NCBI GenBank assembly: GCA_033182465.1
Contig: CP137323.1
Coordinates: 620,001-684,000, forward strand
Direction: 5' to 3'
Source of the DNA: Sanghuangporus weigelae
Lineage: Eukaryota > Basidiomycota > Agaricomycetes > Hymenochaetales > Hymenochaetaceae
Length of the DNA: 64,000 bases
In this document: positions 5,993 to 41,757 of the stretch, piece by piece
Numbering within the stretch: the stretch's first letter is position 1
Layout: every line of letters starts with the position of its first letter
Made by a program: the position numbers and the translations under genes
The notes under the pieces: model-generated
Databases searched by the model: none
Told to the model about the DNA's origin: nothing
What the model saw: the letters and a program-made list of their open reading frames with translations, nothing else

Positions 5993-7615
5993 GGTGTAGC
6001 GCACTGGCTCCTCCTGTGTCAGTACACTCATACTATGGCTCCCTCTTACTGCAGATACCATATCCCAGCACTGCCGACACCTGAGAGTGTGAGGGCACAC
6101 TCCTATTGCACTCGGGACATCATTTGAGCACGTATCCATTGATTCCAGCACACGTACTGTACTGCGGCGCCCTCCTATGACCCAAATTGATCCGCCGATG
6201 GCTCCCCGACACTCAGACAGGTCCGCCGACAGCTCCTACCCAGCACCAGGCACTATAGGGCACATCCCTCAGTGACTACGTGCCGCCGATCTTATGATTT
6301 ACCATACGTACAGCCGTGCGGCGACTCTGGATGCCTCCGAGTCGGCCCCCCTTGGCACCGATCAATGCAGCGGACACTCAGACATCCTCAGGTACCCTCG
6401 CCGACGCCTCCTACAGCTTACCAAGCAGTCCCCCATTGTCTAGGGAGCTATATATTGTTATATGTGCTTACATGCCTCATTACGATGTATCTGCCACCAG
6501 TCCGGCAGTCCCCCACAGCACTGCCGCTCCGGCCACTCATATTAGTCACTAGGGATCGCCCACACTCTGTATTGAATGCCGCCGATGCATCGGACACCTC
6601 AGGGACATCGGCTGATGCGCCCTTTGTCTTATATACGCGATATCAGCCTCCAATCATCGGTTCCGATGTTTCCCGACTTCCCCCCGACGCGGCGGCCAAC
6701 ATTAGACCATGTATGGAAGGTAGGCATGTGGTACATCGGCGTGCCAAGCCACCGACTCGCGCCGCCAAGCCCAACTCTGCCGGCGCCCGTGTTATTGCAG
6801 ATACTCAATATTTCATGTGATTGGATGCCCCCCTCACGTTGCCGCTCTCAGATTTCACCTGGGCGCTCCGGCAGCGGCCCTTGGTGACCCAGATGACTCA
6901 GGAGATGTTGTCAGACAGTAGGATGTGTCGGCAACAGCAGTAGAGTATATATAGAGCTTATACTAGCTTGTAGACGAAAGGATTCCAAGCCTAGCAAGGA
7001 TTCCAAGCCTAGCAAGGATTCCAAGAGCATGTACCAGACCGAGCGCCAGAGTTCGAGATATCCCTCACTCTGAGTCTCCCCTCATGTACTGAGCCTCCCC
7101 CTTGACTATATACTATCCTTGACATCTCCTCTTGTTTGACTCCACATTCTACTTGCCTTCGCCGCCTCCGGTACGCCTCTGCCGCTCTGACGTTCAGTGA
7201 ATTTGTGCAGCCTCCCCCTCAATCCGGCACCCCTCTATTCGACGTCGGCGGCCACCTGGCGACCCAGCCTTCCTATCATACACCCCTGCAGCGCCTTCTC
7301 CAGCCACTCACTCCAGCTTAGTCCATATATTCATCTTATACGGTCGTTTCTCTCCATCTATTGTGTTTACGCTACGTCAGCAGCCCCCTGTGATCCCCCC
7401 TCTCAAGCGGCGGTCCTGTTATCCTATTCCCTTTATCCAGCGGCATCCCTAGACCCATCCATTACGTCTCCGACGGTTCCTGGCACCTGCCGGGTAGTAG
7501 GTCTTTGAGAGTCTGATAGCGTCGGCATCCCATTTTTGGAGGTTCCTTCATACATTCAGCACCCTTAGTAGGACGGACATCTGTAGCACCTTCAGATACG
7601 ACACCGCCGATCAAC
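5993..7615 (+). repeat. Left inverted arm of foldback element
   Basis: The reverse complement occurs at about 8540-10306 with few mismatches over the outer 1.2 kb. It contains a TATA-like GTATATATAGAG near 6945, followed by an 18-bp tandem repeat and then a C/T-rich stretch. The arm carries open frames (6272-6820) whose Pro/Ser/Arg-rich product resembles nothing I know and may be fortuitous. Confidence 0.8.
6978..7025 (+). repeat. 18-bp tandem repeat, 2.7 copies
   Basis: The unit AAGGATTCCAAGCCTAGC is present twice in full, plus a 12-base partial copy. The matching place in the right arm (near 9293-9330) has fewer, more diverged copies, so copy number changed after the arms were duplicated. 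Confidence 0.85.
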
Positions 7616-8058
7616 AGCGGGTTCTGCTGGGTTCTGGTGACTAGCCATGCTTTGCCTTCATATCGTATGTCTCGAATGTAATGCCATATCCTTCGTTGTA
7701 TAAGGAGTTGTAACTGCTTGGTCTCCAGGTTTGCATCTCTTGGTAAATAAAGGTTTGCCTGTATCGTAGATGCTGGACATGGTGTGTGCAACTCCGGTCT
7801 ATACCATCCAATCATTCTCCAAGTTATCGGGTTCGCAGCTCGAGGGGTTCGAGTTGTGATCGTGAGTTCCTCTCGTTTCTTGGGTACTATTGGGTTTGGT
7901 GGATTGGAATGCATTGTATCTTGAAGGTGTCGCTCGGTTTTGATGTGACAGTCACACATGCCAACTGTTGCCGTGCATACTATGTAGTATACTTCATAAA
8001 GGACCATGTAAACTCGTGCACAGACTTGACAGTGCTGAAATGCCAGTGAGGTCTCCAT
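7462..8058 (-). CDS. Hypothetical ORF spanning spacer and left arm of the foldback element
   Basis: Uninterrupted 198-codon frame starting with an ATG at 8058. I do not recognise the product. It has no clear membrane segment or zinc-binding pattern; it does contain a basic, Gln-rich middle (around residues 110-150). The last 50 or so codons lie inside the left arm, so the same C-terminal coding end is repeated in inverted orientation at about 8547-8693, there without the upstream part. It could be the remnant of an element-encoded protein or a chance frame. Confidence that it is translated is low. Confidence 0.3.
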   Translation of the reverse strand: METSLAFQHCQVCARVYMVLYEVYYIVCTATVGMCDCHIKTERHLQDTMHSNPPNPIVPKKREELTITTRTPRAANPITWRMIGWYRPELHTPCPASTIQANLYLPRDANLETKQLQLLIQRRIWHYIRDIRYEGKAWLVTRTQQNPLLIGGVVSEGATDVRPTKGAECMKEPPKMGCRRYQTLKDLLPGRCQEPSET

Positions 8059-8539
8059 AAACCTTATTAGCCTTTAGCCTTTTAGCGTTTAGGCTTTAGT
8101 AGTTGTGCTTCTGGACTTCTAAGAAGTTTGATCGCTTCTTTTGATCGAGGTCACTCTGGTTGCTTGGTCGGCGGCGTTAGAGTGATAGTCCGCGGTAATA
8201 GGCGGTCGGCGGTGTTAGCTGTTAGCGGGATTACGTATCCGCTTCGGTGCTTCTAGCGCTCGGGTGGTAACGGGTTACTGTTGCCTAGGCCGCTCGATCG
8301 CTTGGGCCCGTGATAGCTGGCTTGGTTACCGGTCGTGTTTGGAAAGCTGATCGTGTAGATCTGTTGATCGTGTCGATCCTGATGCGAGTTTTTGAATGGA
8401 TCCTTTCACCCATCCATCATGAGGTAAGAAAGAACAGCCTTCTCCCTCAACCCTCTGCCTCTCTTTACTTCTAACCACTACCATCTCCATCTCCAAAATG
8501 GCTGATTTTCCTGGAGTGATCGATTTAAGCAACGCCCAT

Positions 8540-10306
8540 TGTTGGTCGGCGGTGTCGTATCTGAAGGTGCTACAGATGTCCGTCCTACTAAGGGTGCTGA
8601 ATGTATGAAGGGACCTCCGAAAATGGGATGCCGACGCTATCAGACTCTCAAAGACCTACTACCCGGCAGGTGCCAGGAACCGTCGGAGACGTAATGGATG
8701 GGTCTAAGGATGCCGCTGGATAAAGGGAATAGGATAACAGGGCCGCCGCTCAAAAGGGGGGATCACAAGAGGCTGCCGACGTGGTATAAACTCGGCCACA
8801 GGAAGGTATGAAGTGTATAAGATGAATATAAAGGATAAAATGGAGTGAGTGGCTGGAGAAGGCGCCGCTGGGTCGTCTGATAGGATGCCTGGGTCGTCGG
8901 ATGGCCGCCGATGTCGAATAGAGGGGTGCCGGACTGAGGGGGAGGCCGCAGGAATCCGCCGAAGTAGCGTAAACGCGATAGATGAGAGGAAAAGACCGTA
9001 TAAGATCAATATATGGGATAAACTGGAGTGAAAGGCTGGAAAGGACGCCGAAGGGGAGTCTGATAAGAAGCCTGGGTCACCGAAGGGTCGCCGACGTCGA
9101 ATAGAGGGGCGCCGGATCACTGAACGTCAGAGCGGCAGAGGCGTACCGGAGGCGGCGAAGGCAAGTAGAATGTGGAGTCAAACAAGAGGAGATGTCAAGG
9201 ATCGTATATAGTCAAGGGGGAGGCTCAGTACATGAGGGGAGACTCAGAGTGAGGGATATCTCGAACTCTGGCGCTCGGTCTGGTACATGCTCTTGGAACC
9301 CTCGCTAGGCTTGGAATCCTTTTGTCTACAAGCTAGTATAAGCTCTATATATACTCTACTGCTGTTGCCGACACATCCTACTGTCTGACAACATCTCCTG
9401 AGTCATCTGGGTCGCCAAGGGCCGCTGCCGGAGCGCCCAGGTGAAATCTGAGAGCGGCAACGTGAGGGGGGCGTCCAATAGCATGGAATATCGAGTATCT
9501 GCAATAATACGGGCGCCAGCGGAGTTGGGCTTGGCGGCGTGAGTCGGTGGCTTGGCACGCCGATGTACCACATGCCTACCTTCCATACATGGTCTAATGG
9601 GGGCCGCCGCGTTGGGGGGAAGTCGGGAAACATTGGAACCAATGATCGGAGGCTGATATCGCGTATATGAGACAAAGGGCGCATCAGCCGATGTCCCTGA
9701 GGTGTCCGATGCATCGGCGGCATTCAATACAGAGTGTGGGCGATCCCTAGTGACTAATATGAGTGGCCGGAGCGGCAGTGCTGTGGGGGACTGCCGGACT
9801 GGTGGCAGATACATCGTAATGAGGCATGTAAGCACATATAACAATATATAGCTCCCTAGACAATGGGGGACTGCTTGGTAAGCTGTAGGAGGCATCGGCG
9901 AGGGTACCTGAGGATGTCTGAGTGTCCGCCGCATTGATCGGCGCCAAGGGGGGCCGACTCGGAGGCATCCAGAGTCGCCGCACGGCTGTACGTATGGTAA
10001 ATCATAAGATCGGCGGCACGTAGTCACTGAGGGATGTGTCCTATAGTGCCTGGTGCTGGGTAGGAGCTGTCGGCGGACCTGTCTGAGTGTCAGGGAGCCA
10101 TCGGCGGATCGATTTGGGTCATAGGAGGGCACCGCAGTACAGTACGTGTGCTGGAATCAATGGATACGTGCTCAAATGATGTCCCGAGTGCAATAGGAGT
10201 GTGCCCTCACACTCTCAGGTGTCGGCAGTGCTGGGATATGGTATCTGCAGTAAGAGGGAGCCATAGTATGAGTGTACTGGCACAGGAGGAGCCAGTGCGC
10301 TACACC
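8540..10306 (-). repeat. Right inverted arm of foldback element
   Basis: Mirror copy of 5993-7615. It is about 145 bp longer than the left arm. Much of the difference comes from a tandem duplication near its inner end: the GTCGAATAGAGGGG block occurs at 8913 and again at 9096, a period of 183 bp, where the left arm has one copy. A minus-strand frame stays open across 9356-10132, but no ATG starts it and the product is unrecognised. Confidence 0.8.
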
Positions 10307-10544: not shown

Positions 10545-10728
10545 TGACAAGCTGCACTTGACTCCTGTTCTACTGATCATCCTGATCATAGCACAACATT
10601 ACCTTGGCTTGCATATCTCCTTTACATGCGACACGATCGATGGGGAGAGGTTGATGACTTGGAGAGAGCAGTAATGTTGAATCGTGCCATGCTGGAGTCT
10701 GAACCGGAGGGTCATCCGGATCATTCTA

Positions 10729-12054
10729 CAGCTGGGTATCAAAAGTGACCGTCACTGTCACACAAAACGTGTGCCGCATTGTGCGTCGTCTCACTTTGTC
10801 AGTTTCCACTCACTTCCGTCCTGCCCCCCTCCCTACTTTCATGACCCAAACACACTCCCTAAGGTCTCAGCTCACCTCCCTGGTGAAAAACCAGATTATT
10901 GGGGCCATTATTGGTGGCAAAAACAAGTCTCAAGCAGCAAAGGCATTTGGCATACCTCAGACGACCGTAAACGACCTTTTTGCACGCTACAAAAAAACCG
11001 GTACAACAAAAAACTCGCCCCGAACTGGCCGTCCGAAGAAGATGCGTGATCATGTCCGTCGCCTGCTCATACGAACTGCAAGAAAAAACCGTTTTGCGCC
11101 TCTCAAAACTCTGGCACAAAGTCTCGATGTCAAAGTGAGCCGTCAGACTATCAGACGTGAGCTAAACGCTGCAGGACTCAAGCAGAGGAAGGCCCGACGT
11201 GCTCCATACATCAACAAGGCCCATAGGGTCTTACGGCTAGCATGTGCAAAGGAACTGGTGAAGATTACGAAGAGGCAGTTGAAGTCGGTCATTTTCTCAG
11301 ACGAGTGCTATGTTTACCTTGGTTCAAACCCTGGCACCATTTATTGTACACATCGCTCTGATGAAACCTGACATGAGGACTGCGTTATACCATCCTTTAA
11401 GAAGTCCTCTGTATGTGTTATGGTCTGGGGTTGCATCATGTATGGTAGGAAGGGTCCGCTTATTGTGCTCAAGTATCCTGGGGGCAAGGGAGGAGGAATG
11501 ACTGCGAAAAAATATATTGAGCAGGTATTGGATGGCTGTCTTTTGGATTTTTACAACGAGGTCCGTCGACGCAATTGGTCTGTTATATTTCAACAAGACA
11601 ATGCACGGTGCCATACAGCAAAAACGACACAATGCTGGTTTGAAGAGCATGGCATTTCACTGTTCCCACACCCACCCACTTCTCCAGACATTAACGCTAT
11701 CGAACCTTGCTGGTTGGACCTTAAACGGAACATATGGGCCCGTCGGAATCACCCTACATCAGTTGGAGAGCTCAGAAAGACTGTTCTCGAGGCCTGGGAG
11801 GCAATACCAATCAATCATATCAATAACTATATTTTATCAGTGCCTCGCCGTGCACAGGCAATTATTAATGCTAAAGGTGGACCAACGAAATACTAATGGT
11901 GGAAGGAATATTATTAGATGCTAATCAATGTATATACATACTTAATTTTGTATAAAATTGTGTTTTGCGTGAGTGGTGCAGCATAGAAGTTGCATGAGCA
12001 CGACGCGACTTACGGGAAAGCGTGACAGTGACGGTCACTTTTGATACCCGGCTG
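10729..12054 (+). mobile_element. Tc1/mariner element inserted in the TPR-CHAT gene
   Basis: A 1326-bp DNA transposon. Terminal inverted repeats of about 32 bp begin CAGCTGGGTATCAAAAG on the left and CAGCCGGGTATCAAAAG on the right, followed in both by TGACCGTCACTGTCAC, with one mismatch. It is flanked by TA on both sides (10727-10728 and 12055-12056), the standard target duplication of this superfamily. Removing the element and one TA rejoins the host TPR frame exactly. It encodes one DD34E transposase. Confidence 0.95.
10841..11896 (+). pseudogene. Tc1/mariner transposase with one internal stop
   Basis: Cut-and-paste transposase of the Tc1 group. The first ATG inside the element that precedes the conserved part is at 10841. 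An N-terminal helix-turn-helix (SQAAKAFGIPQTTVNDLF) and a second DNA-binding segment are followed by the catalytic triad: Asp in FSDECYV, Asp in QQDNARCHTA, and Glu in SPDINAIEPCW. Thirty-four residues separate the second Asp from the Glu. A single in-frame TGA at 11369-11371 falls between the first and second catalytic Asp; otherwise the 351-codon frame is open with no shift. The length matches the family (about 340-350 residues). The copy is thus nearly intact and probably young, but inactive by itself unless the stop is bypassed. Confidence 0.92.
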
Positions 12055-14356
12055 TACGTCGTTGGCGAACCTTGCGAACAGCCTTAGGACGCGCTTTCAG
12101 CACGGCGGGAGGATGGACGATCTTGAGGAAGCCATCTCAATGAATCGCACCGTTCTGGAGCTTGAACCGGAGGGTCATCCGTATCGTCCTACGTCGTTGG
12201 CGAACCTTGCGAGCAGCCTTAGGACGCGCTTTGAGCACAGCAGGAGGATGGATGATTCTGAGGAAGCCATCTCAATGAACCACGTCGCACTGGAGTTGCG
12301 ACCGGAGGGTCATCCGCATCATTCTAATTCGTTGGCGAACCTTGCGAGCAGCCTTACGACGCGCTTTAGGCACGTCGGGAGGATGGATGATCTCGAGGAA
12401 GCCATCTAAATGGGACGCGCCGCGCTTGAGCGTTTACCGGAGGGTCATCCGCATCATTCTAATTCGTTGGCGAACCTTGCGAGCAGCCTCTGGACGCGCT
12501 TTAGGCACAGCGGGAGGATGGATGATCTCGAGGAAGCCATCTCAATGGGATGCGCCGCACTGGAGCTTCGACCAGAGGGCCATCCGTATCGTTCTTCGTC
12601 ACTGTATTGGCTTGCCGAATTCCTCTACGTTCGTTATGAGAAAGAAGGACGTACGGGTGATTTCGAGGAATCTATTCAGTCATTAAGGCTTGCTGCCCTT
12701 CACCCGTTCTCGAACTTCAAAACTCGTCTTGACACTGCGTACAGATGGACGACAATAGCTCAATCTCATGATCATAACACCGTCATTGAAGCTCACAGAA
12801 CAGCCATGTCTCTCCTGAAGCGTGCCCTCACCATAAGACCTACTCTATCCGAACAGCACAAGTTTCTTTGTAGTCACAGTCGTTATCAGGCACATGCATT
12901 AGACGCGGCTTCACATGCCATCGGCAAAGGTGAATTCGCCCTGGCTATCGAGTTCCTTGAGCAAGGGAGAGCGTTGCTATGGTCACAGATGCGCGGATTC
13001 AGGACCCCTCTCGAACAGCTTTCGGAAGTGGATGGAACGCTTGCTGAAAGATTCGAGGCCTGTAACCGTTGCCTGGAAGCCCTTATAACACTGTCCGAGT
13101 CACGTACGTCCGGTTCAAATACGAGTGCAATTGCAACTCGTGGATACGGCCTGTTTCAGGAACAACGTGCTATCGATGAGACGTTAGCACAGGTGCGACG
13201 ACTGTCGGAAGAGCAGGAAGTACTTATTAACGATATACGTCGAATACGCGGATTTGAAGACTTTCTCAGAGTCAAACCAATCGATGCTATACGGCAAGCA
13301 GCCTCAGAAGGACCCGTCATTGTTCTCAATCACTCCAAGCATAGATGCGACGCACTGATTGTCCTCGCACGCGAGAATGATCCATGCGTTTGCATTTCCC
13401 TGGACAAGGATTTTTATGCCGATTCTATCAGTCTGCATGAGGAGCTCATACGAATCCGCCGAACACGTAGAGTAAGTTCCAGCGCGTATGACGAGGTGCT
13501 TCGACGAGTGATGAAGACGCTGTGGGAGAGAGTCGTATCCAAAGTCGTCCAAAAACTTATAGAATCCGGGATCGAGGAGGGATCACGTATTTGGTGGTGT
13601 CCTACCTCAGTACTCTCTGCCTTCCCTTTTCACGCTGCAGGTCCGTACGAAGGTCGGGACGGTAGTGAGAAGTATTTCCTGGATGACTACATCTCGTCTT
13701 GTACTTCAACACTGACGTCGCTCGTCAATGCACGATCTGGTGTACCAAACGGAGGTGAAAGGATGCTCTTTGTTGCTGACACGACACTTCCCTCAGCCAA
13801 AAAAGAAAGAGATGCCATATTCAGTGTTCGTCGCTTTAAGCACCTCCTTGGTAATCGAGCAACTCCAAAAGCAGTGCTCAGGCTTCTTCAAGAAGCGAAC
13901 TGGGTGCGTTTTGTATGCCCTGGACGACTCGACGACGAGCCTTTCAACTCCTCTCTCAAGCTCTCTGGTGGAGGGCTTACCTTACTGGACACCGCGCGAG
14001 CCAACCTCCCGAATGCAGAGTTTGCATTTCTTTCAGCTTGCCATTCTGCGGAACAAGGCCCAAATTTTGCGCTGGACGAAGCACTGCACCTAGCAGCGGG
14101 TATGCAGTTCTGCGGATTCCGAAGCGTGGTCGGGACGATGTGGCAGCTGGTTGACAGGGATGGTCCTTTTCTTGCTGGTAATGTTTATAGGTATCTCATG
14201 CGCGATTTAGACGAAGGGGAGGTTAGATTCAAGATGGCCGCTGCGGCTGCTGTTCGGCAAGCTGCATTGAATCTGAGGGAATATGGGGTTGAAGATCCAG
14301 ACACGGGGAAGGTCATGACTGAGCGATGGGTCAACCTTGTGCATTTAGGTGCCTGA

Positions 14357-20028: not shown

Positions 20029-23000
20029 TTAACTGGAAAAACCACCTGCAGCAAGGGAATCTGGCAAAGCGCTCGGTCCAGAACCGCATCCTTTCGTCTG
20101 TGCAGCAGCAGCATCACCATCCACGGTAATCACTATCTCCCCACCGCCAACGACGTCGTCAAACGAGAGCCAGCAGAGGGAATCATGCAGAGCTCCGTTG
20201 ATAGTGACGTTCGTAATGAAGACTCTGCTATCTGCCGGAGGGTCTGATGCGATGGAAGACGCATCAAAACCAGAGACAATAAAGCGAGTCGACGTGCCAA
20301 GGAAGTCGTTGTGAAGGGTGAAGCTTGATACAAGTGGTGAATTGAGCAAAAGCTGCTTCGAGGCTGGGACGGGATATAATCCTAGAATGTGAAAAGCTAG
20401 CAAAGCACCCATGGCGCCACTATCATCATTTCCGGGGATCTATAACCCAGTTTCAATTAGTATAGAGTAGCAAATCAAGAAAATATTCCTTACACCGTTG
20501 ATCCCTGTTCCGAAATCACTGAATACCACATTTCGCGTCCGTAAAGCGGACAAGTCTGGTCTATCAGCGTAATGAAACGCCAGTGGCATCGAAAATGACG
20601 GTTCATTTCCTGCAAGGAAATAACCTTCAGTGAAGTAATGCGTCGTCCTATTTATGAAAATATCGGTGCCACCCATGAGGTCCACGATCGAAGACATCGA
20701 ATGCGGCGCAAAGAAACTATATTCCCAAGAAGATGCTTTGCATGCAGTTAGCTACCCGCATACCATAGAAGGACAAGACTGACTGACATTCGTAGAACCC
20801 AACGTTGTTGTCGGTTCCTCGTGCGCAAGAATGACCAACTGTGTCTATCGGTGAACAGGCAACCGGATCGCTGAACGCAAATGTTCCGTTCTATGAAAGT
20901 AGGCGCATTAGAAAGACAATGTAATTAGATACAATAAGAGGTACGTACCGGATATCGACGTTGCATGAACCCTGTAAAACCATCGCTTGTGACATTTGGG
21001 TCCCAATGGTTCAGGAAGTTCATTGACCTATTCTCATATTTCTCAATATCTTCGGACGACTTGTTTAAAGCGATTCCGGCTTGGCGAACTGCAAAATCCC
21101 CAACAGCATACTACAATGTACTGTAAGGGGCCCTTCTCAAAGAGGTTACCAGAAGGCAGACGTACTTCGAGCGCCCGGGACGCCTCTCTGGTAGGCAGGC
21201 CGGTGGAACCCGACGGATCTGTCCACTCTATAGGGATATAACCAAAGGTCCTCCAGGCAGTGTTCTGTCTACCAACTAGTATCAAAGGAGTAGGGCTATG
21301 AGGATTAAGACACAAAATCAGAGCAATAAACGCACCCATGTACCAATTAAGGGGCTATTTGTGCTTCACTCAGCGCCTAGTCTTCTTTCAGCAATAAGCT
21401 GAGAGCATACCGTATTCTCCGCGGTGTCAACCAATGCTTGATATAGGTCATCCATCGGTACTCCGAGCTCAGTCGCATGAGATCCATATTTGACAGCAAG
21501 GTCGCCTAGAATAGGCATCCCGTCACTGCCTCCTTGCACGTATCCTCTGAAGACACGAAAGGAGTGAGCATACTAGCAGCTGTCGAATGATATACTCACT
21601 TCTTTGTGTTGTCGCGACATTCTGGGATATATCCTATGGGATCATAGGATGTACTTGAATGGGTCTTGCTTCAGCGTGAATGGTATGAATACCTGAATCT
21701 CGCCACCCGTCTACATACGCGTTAACTATTTCAGCCCACTCCCGCGGGGAAGTAAGTGAAAGTAGAGGATGCACTGTTCTGAAAGTATCCCAAGAGCTAC
21801 AAAACTTATCCATTAGCAAGAACGGCACTCGAGGACCATATAGGGACAGTTTACCAGAATAGTGCATCGTAAAAAGGATAAGAAGAATTCCAGTAAGGAT
21901 TCTCATCAGTCAGATTTGCGGGTACGAGTTGCGAACGATATAACTGTTATAGTAGAAATAATCAATCTATACGAGTGTAAGTCAGAGAAACTTGAGTTCT
22001 GCGGCTCACCGAAGAATATAGGAGCTCGACTACCGTTGAGTTCTCCACAGACGGGTCAACTTCAACCCTGCTCAGGACGTCCTCCCACTTGCTCACAGAT
22101 GCATTCTGGACAGTATCCCAATCCCAACTAGGAATCTCTTCCTCAGCATTCGCACATGCTTGGTCCATGTTGATGAAGGACACGCCAAAGCGCGAAAGTA
22201 TGGTATGTTGAGAGCTAATCGAATCAGAATCACCCCCGAACGAAAGGAGCGCACCCGCTTCAATGCCCAAAGGCGAGCTTGAGAACGGGAAAGACAGTGT
22301 ACTAGAGTTCTGCGTGATAGTCACATTTGCCTTGTCCGAAGAGCTGACAGATTGATAAGTTCCGAATTGAAGAAGGCTCTGATTTGCGACGCCTGTGGGC
22401 GGAACAAAATCATAACAAGCAAAAGCGGTATAATTATCCGTGCCGTAGCTCTGTAAGTCCGTGAAAAGATTATCGACACAGGGCTTCGCAACACAGCGTA
22501 CCTGGAGATACGTCCCGGAAAGTGTGACTCTGCCAGTAGATGCATCAATCCCAAGCTGTCCTCCTTCGAATGATCTTTGCAAATCGTTTGCTAAATCAAC
22601 CACAACTAGGGAGCTATTCGCAGCTGACGGGTATGTAAATCGAATCAGTCCCGCTCTTCGCGTTGAGGTTGTCTCCAATTTAATTCCATTCTCAAAAGCG
22701 GTCGTGAAGTAGCCAGGAGATGCCGCTATAGTTTTCCGTTGTAGGTCAAGGCAGTAAACCTGCAATTTAGTTGCCACAGCTCACCATCTGTATTAGTAGC
22801 TCTCAAAGCTTCCCTCGCCTCAAGCCCGACGGGGCATACATCGAAGGTGCAGTTCGTCAGTGGGAAAAGAGGGAATATTCCATATCCACCAGCTGCATTT
22901 CCACCTGTTCCTTCATCATGCATCAACGATATACCTATCCGCAGGATCAGAACCTTCTGTGAGGTAAAACTAAGTTTAATTAATACCGGTAACGGGAGAA

Positions 23001-35990: not shown

Positions 35991-36221
35991 GAAAAATAGG
36001 GAGTCAAATCTACGAATCATGGATACCCGAAGGACTCGGATATGACAGTACTGGAAATGTGATCTCGAATACGCCGATGCTACGTGTGTTGGCTATAGAA
36101 CTCGCGGATGCTCGGCTCCGTCTGCAGAGTGACTGTATAAAACTGGAGTTGCTCGCGCATTGACGGTTGATTTCAAGTTTTCTCCTCGTCTCCTTCAATG
36201 CGAAAAGTCCATCTGGATAAG

Positions 36222-37182
36222 ATGAAAGTCACTCTTGCTGCACTTCTCACACTCCTTCCCTTCGCACTCGCTTCGCCGACGCTCGAGCGTCGTCAAGTGG
36301 ACACATCGCAGCACTGCGGTCAATGGGACACTGTGACCGCTGAACAATACACTTTGTTCCTCAACCTTTGGGGAATTAGCGGCGCAACTGGCTCGCAGTG
36401 CTCGCAGATCACGTCGATGACGGATTCTACTATCGCTTGGGAGACGGCCTGGCAATGGACCGGTGGGACCGGTGTCAAAAGCTTCTCAAATGTTCAGTTG
36501 GACGACGGTGTTGGCGTGCAACTGAGCACCATCTCCAGTATGCCGACATCATGGGAATGGTCGTACGATATTTCGAGCGATGCAGTTGCGGACGTTGCTT
36601 ACGACCTGTTCACGGCGGATACTGCGGATGGTGATAATGAGAACGAAATTATGATTTGGCTTGCGAACTACAATGCAGGTCCCATCTCGGCGACGTATGG
36701 CTCAGATGGTAACCCGACTCCAGTTGCATCAGACATTAGTATTGCAAGTCAAACTTGGTTCGTTATTCCTCATTAAATTGTTCTCTTTCAGACGGATGGA
36801 ATTGACTATGTTTCCCTAGGAATCTTTACTTCGGCTCTAATGGCGCGAATAACGTGTATTCCTTCCTTCCAAGCTCTGGTAGGGAGATCACCAGCTTCAG
36901 TGGAGACATCAATGATTTCTTCGCGGTAAATCTCAAAAGCATCTAGCAGAGTCGATTACTAATCAGATGTTTGATTCCGATGTAGTACCTCACTTCTAAC
37001 CAAGGTGTCGAGACAACACAATACCTGAAGACCGCGCAGGCTGGCACAGAACCGACTTCTGGGAGTGGTACACTATCTACGTAAGTTGTCAAGTTTTTTT
37101 CTTGAGTACTAGTTGATGAGCATCTTTCATCCTCAGAACTGCGTATACACTTGCAATCAACAGTGGGAATGCTCTATGTTAA
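36222..37182 (+). CDS. GH12 endoglucanase/xyloglucanase, secreted
   Basis: Glycoside hydrolase family 12 enzyme cutting beta-1,4-glucan or xyloglucan in plant walls. Four exons (36222-36757, 36820-36925, 36986-37080, 37137-37182) give 783 nt and 260 residues. A signal peptide (MKVTLAALLTLLPFALASP) precedes a likely Kex2-like site (ERR). Family marks: LFLNLWGISGA near the mature N-terminus, WEWSYD, the nucleophile-bearing ENEIMIWLANYNAG, and TWNLYFGSNG with the second half of the fold. The C-terminus comes from a 46-nt last exon (TAYTLAINSGNALC). An ATG 24 nt upstream is in frame, but the second ATG gives a cleaner signal peptide. The second catalytic Glu is expected around FFA/YLTS, where I cannot place it with certainty. 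Confidence 0.9.
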
Positions 37183-39468: not shown

Positions 39469-41757
39469 ATGGCGACCGCGCCTTATTCGGCAGAACGACC
39501 TTTGTCGGCTCACTCAGCCTCAAGTACATCGACTATTGAGAAGGCAGGCGGAGATCTCAAGAAGAGTCAGGACGGATCGACAGACGACCTTCTTCCGCCA
39601 GTTACCGAATCTGCAGGTTTCTCAGATATTCTATTCCCATGGCGTCGGCGCAGGAAGGAAGAGGATCACGATCTCGACGCGTGCGCTACTCGACGCAGCG
39701 TGTTCGATGATCCGTTGCTTGCGAAGCATTACTGGCCAACACCAAGGTATGAGAATCTGCACCGGTTTGATCCTAATGCTCGTTGGACTTTCCGAGAGGA
39801 GAAGGTTTGCAGCAGAATTAAAACAGGATCCGTCGTGAATAATTAACCTTTGGATCCTTTTGATTTAGTCCATTATCCGGAAGATTGACTGGCGTGTCGC
39901 GCTCTGGGCCTGTATTAGCTTCTCTGCGGTAAGTCTGGTCGCTGCCCGTTGCTTCAGACATGCGATGCTTATTGACTTTGGGTCACCGTATAGCTGTACG
40001 AAACATTTGACTACAATCCCGTGTATATTAACCGATTATGTGGTATAGGAACCTGGATCGCAATAATCTAACGAACGCAAACTCGGATAACATCCTAGGG
40101 GATCTCAGGATGACGACGAATGACTACAATCTCGGGAACACGATCTTCCGATGCGCATTCTTGGCGGCTGAACTTCCCTCTCAAATGGTCTCAAAACGGG
40201 CAAGTACTCCTGACTATGTTTAAACCAAGCCTGGATGATCCTGACTTCGGCGCAACAGGTTGGTCCAGATCGATGGATTCCAACGCAAATGGTTGCGTGG
40301 TGTATGTCCATCACGATTAGCACAGACCGCGGTCGCGATATTGATGCTCGATTTCCTTAGCCATTCTAACTATGTTTCAGTTCTTTTTAACATCAAGATG
40401 GAACTTCCTACTTTGTCGTGCACTTCTTGGCTTCATCCAAGGAGGATTCATTCCTGACTTGATCCTTTACCTTTCCTGTGAGTCTTCTCCTCTTTGTGAT
40501 CCACTGCGCCGCAGTTTATACGGTTGTCTGACTCGTGGATAATCTTAGACTACTATACGAAGACGGAGCTCCCGATTCGTCTCGCATTCTTTTGGATGTC
40601 AATGAACGCTTGCAATGTTGTCGGAAGCTTCCTGGCATTTGGTATTCTCCATATGCGGGGAGTCGACGATAGAGCGGGCTGGCGCTGGCTGTTCCTCCTC
40701 GAGTAGGCATCACCGCCTCTTCCTAGTACAGGCTCTTTCTCATAATATGTTCAGGGGTTTAATCACATTCGTCATTGCTGTTGCAACGTTCTTCATGATG
40801 CCACCAGCACCGACGAAAACACGAACTTGGTTCCGTCCCAATGGGTGGTTCAGTGAACGCGAAGAGACTATCATCGTATCACGTATTCTGCGAGACGACC
40901 CGACGAAGGGAGATATGCACAACCGCGAAGGCCTCACTCTGAAGCGCCTTTGGACCGCGGTGCTTGATTATGACCTCTGGCCATTATACATCCTGTACGC
41001 AGAATTTTTATGGTGACTTGCTTTTCTTATTCTGATCGGTGCTTGCAGGGGCTTGATGTTTGGCATCCCTGTCGGGCCCGTTACCCAGTATCTGACGCTT
41101 TCGCTCAGGGAACTCGGCTTTACCGTGTTCGAGACGAACCTGCTTACGATCCCATCCACAGCTGTTGCAATTGTCACTATGCTTCTCGTTTCCCTCATCT
41201 CGGAGAACGTTCATGATCGCGCACTAATATCTATGCTCGAGGATATATGGTCTCTTCCGTTCCTCGTTGCCTTGTATTGCCTTCCCGCTAACCCCAGTCC
41301 CTGGCTGTATTATGTGAGTTCGCTCTGTTTCTGCACACACAAAGAGTATCGTATTGATGCATGCGCAATACGATAGGGTCTTGCATCGGGCTTACTTTGT
41401 TATCCATACGTCCACCCCATCCAAGTCGGCTGGTGCTCGCGCAACTCGGGCGCCGTCGCGAGTCGTACTGTCAACGCATCTTTGTACAACATGTTCGTCC
41501 AAGCCAGTTCGGTCATTTACTCCAACATCTACCGTGCGGACGATGCTCCGCGTTACAGGCGCGGAAACCGGGTTCTCATCGCGATCTCTTGTGTCAACAT
41601 CGGCATCCTCTACCCCTGCGCGAAGTTGTATTATATTTGGCGAAACAAGCAGCGGGATAAGATTTGGAACGCGATGACACCGGAGCAGCAGGCGGAGTAT
41701 TTGGCGACGACGAAGGACAAAGGTAATCGTCGGTTGGACTTCCGGTTCGCGCACTGA
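39469..41757 (+). CDS. MFS transporter, Dal5/anion:cation symporter family
   Basis: Major facilitator of the allantoate-permease (Dal5) family, which import organic anions, vitamins or small peptides across the plasma membrane; the substrate is not predictable. Exons: 39469-39804, 39869-39928, 39994-39995 (only two bases), 40049-40199, 40259-40301, 40361-40477, 40549-40702, 40755-40994, 41049-41313, 41377-41757. The total is 1749 nt and 582 residues, in frame only with the two-base exon. Family landmarks: [97 protein letters not shown]. The N-terminal 110 residues are cytosolic and Ser-rich. The intron after 40199 starts with GC. The preceding open frame reaches 39454 but without an ATG. Confidence 0.92.

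Follow-up and report, generated by a model that had tools for sequence, protein, structure and literature searches.

The dinucleotide CT at positions 39994-39995 of the window, the whole 64,000-nucleotide stretch of Sanghuangporus weigelae DNA analysed here, is very probably a genuine constitutive coding exon only two nucleotides long, a reading based on frame, family spacing, profile scores and shuffled sequences. The exon belongs to an MFS transporter gene at 39469..41757 on the + strand. Rebuilding this gene joins ten exons of 336, 60, 2, 151, 43, 117, 154, 240, 265 and 381 nt into a single reading frame of 582 codons plus a stop, open throughout, and reproduces the total of 1749 nt (583 codons including the stop; 582 aa) proposed in the initial annotation. 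Eight of its nine introns begin with GT, one begins with GC, and all nine end in AG. The GC-AG intron is intron 4 (40200..40258, + strand; GCAAGT...CAACAG), which links ...SKR to VGPDRW in frame, and the seven introns other than those flanking CT measure 52-71 nt.

Inspection of positions 39900-40060 bears out the coordinates, letters and intron lengths first proposed for this arrangement, all of which lies on the + strand. Exon 2 (39869..39928; 60 nt) encodes TM1 and finishes with GCG in phase 0, at the boundary ...TCTGCG|GTAAGT (39928/39929). Intron 2 (39929..39993; 65 nt) reads GTAAGT...TTGAC...TATAG with the A of its branch motif 18 nt before the end, and is followed by CT in the setting TATAG|CT|GTACGA (39993/39994-39995/39996). 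As exon 3 (39994..39995), CT forms positions one and two of a CTG codon for Leu. Intron 3 (39996..40048; 53 nt) then reads GTACGA...TTAAC...TATAG, with its branch-motif A 17 nt before the end, and meets exon 4 at GGTATAG|GAACCTGG (40048/40049); the opening base of exon 4 (40049..40199; 151 nt) completes the split Leu codon. That is to say, two complete GT-AG introns are separated by nothing but CT, each carrying a YTRAY branch-like motif and TATAG. The predicted mRNA junction is GCG-CT-GAACCTGG, its translation is SFSALNLDRNNL, and the join of GCG, CT and G both rebuilds the Leu codon and gives TM1 its family length. Skipping CT, with the whole of 39929-40048 excised as a single intron, breaks the frame and brings a stop at codon 138; that unsplit intron would measure 120 nt, outside the 52-71 nt range into which 65 and 53 nt both fit. 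CT thus has what is looked for in an ultra-small exon, an adjoining acceptor upstream, a donor downstream and a role in keeping the frame of a conserved protein.

A loss of frame across a 120-nt intron could also arise from a sequence or assembly error, or from a real frameshift in a pseudogene, with an indel in exon 2 or exon 4. The sequence does rest on a single assembly. Against this reading, with CT in place the other seven introns yield a single uninterrupted frame of 582 codons, and two complete sets of splice signals lie inside the 120-nt interval. Moreover, the only runs of four or more identical bases in 39850-40120 are TTTT at 39858, within intron 1, and GGGG at 40098, within exon 4. 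We therefore regard an error or pseudogene as very unlikely.

To compare splice sites, donors and acceptors were scored with a small matrix built from the gene's seven other introns. The initial annotation had called both the acceptor and the donor at CT good. The TATAG acceptors of introns 2 and 3 each score 4.74 bits, within the 4.29-6.14 range of the other introns, and the YTRAY branch-like motif of introns 2 and 3 recurs in six of the seven others. GTAAGT at 39929 scores 7.72 bits and is the best GT donor in the stretch. GTACGA at 39996 is the second-best GT site at 3.34 bits, little above the unused GTATAT at 40023 (3.05 bits), and falls below all seven other donors (5.01-7.04 bits), which makes the second donor the weak point of the two-nucleotide exon model. 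The gene model has the boundary CT|GTACG at the donor of intron 8 as well.

Each splice path between exons 2 and 4 was then enumerated with GT or GC donors, AG acceptors and introns of at least 30 nt. The statement that the flanking exons cannot be joined in frame is correct for those two exon ends, but 34 routes, the one through CT among them (5 with a single intron and 29 with two), reach the natural stop in frame, nested paths being counted separately. Among these 34, the path that retains CT is alone in using the consensus GTAAGT donor. One two-intron path, 39901-39957 with 39988-40048, leaves a 30-nt mini-exon and matches the CT path in W-Asp spacing (16) and in protein length (582 aa); it was given no weight, having poor donors (GCTCTG and GTATAG) and a TM1 unrelated to that of the family. 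A splice from the donor at 39929 to the acceptor at 39957 (CTTCAG, the top-scoring AG in the stretch) was set aside as well, its intron of 29 nt being below the 30-nt minimum.

Among the single-intron paths, exon 2 may read through GTAAGT into one ordinary intron at 39988-40048 (61 nt; donor GTATAG) or 39982-40048 (67 nt; donor GTCACC). Leu is then replaced by 20 or 18 residues, with or without SP, for products of 601 or 599 aa. Both remain in frame and stop-free to the natural stop codon, their lengths are typical of the gene (52-71 nt), and annotation software that disallows very small exons might settle on one of them. Nevertheless, such a path bypasses the 7.72-bit donor in favour of one that scores 0.01 or 0.21 bits, and TM1 gains charged residues together with 17 or 19 extra positions. 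These features, combined with the family comparisons below, leave a single intron a very small chance of being correct. An mRNA junction reading ...GGGTCACC-GAACC, or GCG-GAACC, is incompatible with the retention of CT.

To estimate how readily chance yields such an arrangement, the 120-nt interval was dinucleotide-shuffled 20,000 times with the outer 6 bases at each end held fixed. A frame-restoring AG|NN|GT flanked on either side by 45 nt or more appeared in 802 of the 20,000 shuffles (4%), and a frame-restoring mini-exon no longer than 30 nt in 2,988. Once donor, acceptor and branch-like motifs on both sides had to be equally good, the counts were 5 of 20,000 for a 2-nt exon and 24 of 20,000 for a mini-exon of any length up to 30 nt; these counts are guides and not strict probabilities, because the thresholds were set post hoc at the observed values. 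Origin of the intron pair by duplication was considered and rejected, since the similarity observed was reached in 286 of 500 shuffles and the two are no more alike than chance.

The product with CT retained matches Pfam MFS_1 at 81.5 bits, above the cut-off of 33.4. It may be a transporter of ACS/Dal5 type; the best NCBIfam models, TIGR00893 (132 bits, cut-off 395) and HpaX (96.9 bits, cut-off 615.4), both score under their cut-offs. A search for a solved structure of a close relative gave none at E 0.001, and matches at E up to 10 comprise nine distinct chains, 2 of DgoT and 7 of SV2A. Fungal orthologues were sought in viral and genome contig collections, and none was found there; six spellings of the motif gave no paper in the literature search.

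Elsewhere in the window, a near-palindrome of about 4.3 kb occupies 5993-10306, with arms at 5993-7007 and 9292-10306 that are 97% complementary over 1015 nt and four further nested arm pairs inside. It sits just upstream of Tc1-like transposase pieces at 10703-11893 (HTH_Tnp_Tc3_2 at 10703-11368 and DDE_3 at 11372-11893), which we take to be of Tc1/mariner type. A CHAT domain lies in the open frame 12410-14353 (region 12032-14353), and a 267-nt repeat is present at 12059-12730 in four overlapping copies spaced 135 nt apart. Gene pieces of Glycosyl hydrolase family 12 (36171-36773, + strand) and Glycosyl hydrolase family 92 (21965-22780, - strand) are also found. Rfam and ARAGORN scans returned no match.

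The protein family was used as a ruler for the length of the join. The relatives, read from bacterial DNA, number 92: 12 from plasmids, hand-picked from 40 shown of 563 records, and 80 from genome contigs, the best 80 of at least 583, which were retrieved with peptide patterns from the downstream part and verified by a search with the CT-containing product. They are not a random sample, and we take most to be Proteobacteria. The spacing count was anchored only on sequence downstream of TM1, and 86 of the 92 could be scored; the anchor pattern failed in the remaining six (L007, L028, L030, L042, L056 and L070), where the pairwise listing also places a basic residue 15 before Asp/Asn. In 85 of the 86 scorable relatives the residue exactly 15 positions ahead of the motif Asp is R or K; W lies 16 ahead of it in 59, and P lies 12 ahead of it in 83. 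The CT-containing product likewise carries R at position 15 and W at position 16. A product shorter by one residue needs R/K at 14 and W at 15, and neither occurs in any scorable relative (0/86). Pairwise comparisons agree, with an aligned W-D spacing of 16 in 88 of 92 relatives, 12 in one and no alignment in three, and an alignment of the CT-containing product with 12 relatives has no gap in TM1, between the conserved KxxWR and DR motifs. The initial annotation had described the join as exactly the pattern of the Dal5 family. The spacing is indeed conserved, but the Leu itself is not: the comparison covers bacterial relatives only, and at this position the 92 carry Ala (61), Ser (17), Asn (6) or Ile (1), with 7 unaligned.

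This spacing also bears on a nested intron of the [D1,2] stwintron kind. Here the excision of 39929-39993 comes first and re-creates an outer donor, G|CTGTA; of the nested paths this one disturbs TM1 least, but CT is lost and the product, SFSANLDR, is one residue shorter; the mRNA would lack GCGCTGAAC, and a CT-less mRNA shorter by one codon would read GCGAACCTGG. Two equivalent paths of this sort exist if GC donors are allowed, and the gene already holds a GC-AG intron at 40200-40258. Pfam MFS_1 likewise favours the product lacking Leu, at 84.6 versus 81.5 bits, a difference of 3.1 bits. In contrast, the GC donor GCTGTA is poor beside the gene's own GCAAGT, and with GT donors alone the sole nested solution removes most of TM1. 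The family spacing it requires is the one counted in 0/86 relatives, and a profile built from the relatives prefers the CT-containing product by 1.7 bits. A [D1,2] stwintron regains a canonical outer donor once its internal intron is out, and no exonic base stays behind; the CT site does not present this pattern. We consider a nested intron the least probable of the alternatives, with a slim chance at best.

Scores over whole products separate retention of CT from the remaining paths to different degrees. On the profile from the 92 relatives, the CT-containing product reaches 157.3 bits, the one-residue deletion 155.6, the two single-intron insertions 142.9 and 142.0 (a loss of 14-15 bits), and the fragment with CT skipped 1.5. 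In pairwise scores against the 92 relatives, the CT-containing product wins 71 times against the deletion, ties 5 times and loses 16 times, with margins of at most 5 in 14 of those 16 and of 10 in the other two; against the better single-intron product it wins 88, ties 2 and loses 2. Among general models, TIGR00893, HpaX, PgtP and UhpC favour the CT-containing product by 0.8 to 1.8 bits and TIGR00880 by 0.1 bits, the SV2 model gives a tie, and the NarK model leans to the deletion (29.8 versus 29.4 bits). The spacing count is the stronger argument, because the margin between retention and deletion on the profile is small, a single gap being cheap. With the splice paths enumerated and the main ones compared with relatives, the two-nucleotide exon first proposed for this gene is still the best reading.

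Exons of this size have precedents. The nearest is the CYP621A P450 genes of Fusarium, where a 1-nt exon is reported in 20 orthologues and is backed by 18 SRA reads (PMC12940212). Both cases are fungal, involve an exon-phase mismatch in a conserved motif, use family spacing as the ruler, and split an apparent intron, in Fusarium more than twice the median length, into two (PMC12940212). They differ in that the Fusarium exon has 1 nt and not 2, belongs to an ascomycete P450 and not a transporter, and is supported by reads and orthologues (PMC12940212). From an earlier study, the Fusarium paper cites exons of 2-5 bp in Arabidopsis, Drosophila and humans (PMC12940212), and exons down to 6 bp are reported in Phanerochaete P450 genes (PMC1184071). 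In Arabidopsis APC11, a 1-nt exon was shown by cDNA and a GFP reporter, and an engineered 2-nt version (A>TT) was included in Arabidopsis cDNA but mis-spliced in rice (PMC4674806). That exon shares with CT an ultra-small constitutive length needed for frame, whereas it is a plant exon in a 422-nt interval with cDNA and GFP support (PMC4674806). Plant microexons of at most 15 nt, including the 1-nt exon of VPS55, rest on RNA-seq and RT-PCR (PMC8831610). They resemble the CT exon in that sub-3-nt exons are overlooked by annotation and omission of the VPS55 exon also changes a transmembrane helix, and they differ in being from plants with RNA-seq and RT-PCR support; the term '2-nt' does not occur in that text (PMC8831610). 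The initial annotation called exons this small very rare, which is fair, although 1-nt exons are proven in plants and read-supported in one fungal gene (PMC4674806, PMC8831610, PMC12940212). The two-base exon is thus rare but of an already known kind, because exons of 1 nt are proven in plants and supported in Fusarium CYP621A. Among the matches listed from the open-licence literature, judged mostly by title and the start of the abstract, none reports a naturally occurring 2-nt exon from a fungus.

Two other splicing systems are related to the CT site. The [D1,2] stwintrons are likewise fungal and require two short U2 introns to be removed consecutively, but leave no exonic base between them, whereas the CT site keeps two (PMC5639578). 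The CT site fails the definition of a stwintron because two bases are retained. Ratchet points, the sites of recursive splicing, are not known to leave any exonic bases. As at the CT site, their acceptor and donor adjoin and serve one after the other, but they are sited within long Drosophila introns (PMC8605326).

For removal of introns 2 and 3, each would be recognised alone by intron definition, and the two would be removed stepwise, one after the other, because a 2-nt exon cannot carry splice factors at its two edges simultaneously. The authors of the APC11 study similarly suggest intron definition with stepwise removal (PMC4674806). Intron 2 would most likely leave first because of its consensus GTAAGT donor, and ...GCGCT|GTACGA would then act as the donor for intron 3; the opposite order would give the same mRNA. 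Transcripts that keep one or both introns are all three truncated in translation, with stops at codons 155, 158 and 172. Failed splicing would therefore yield no transporter, since every intron-retaining form is truncated. A fuller account, in which a mushroom-type fungus splices two minimal introns around a constitutive 2-nt exon in an obligatory stepwise fashion and the order of removal may gate transporter production, is one we hold to be doubtful and put forward tentatively.

How the spliceosome deals with a pair of splice sites that it cannot fill at the same time is put to the test by exons of 1-2 nt, which also defeat automated gene models. If the two-nucleotide exon is real, it would offer a compact natural test substrate, flanked by introns of only 65 and 53 nt, in a short-intron setting unlike that of plants.
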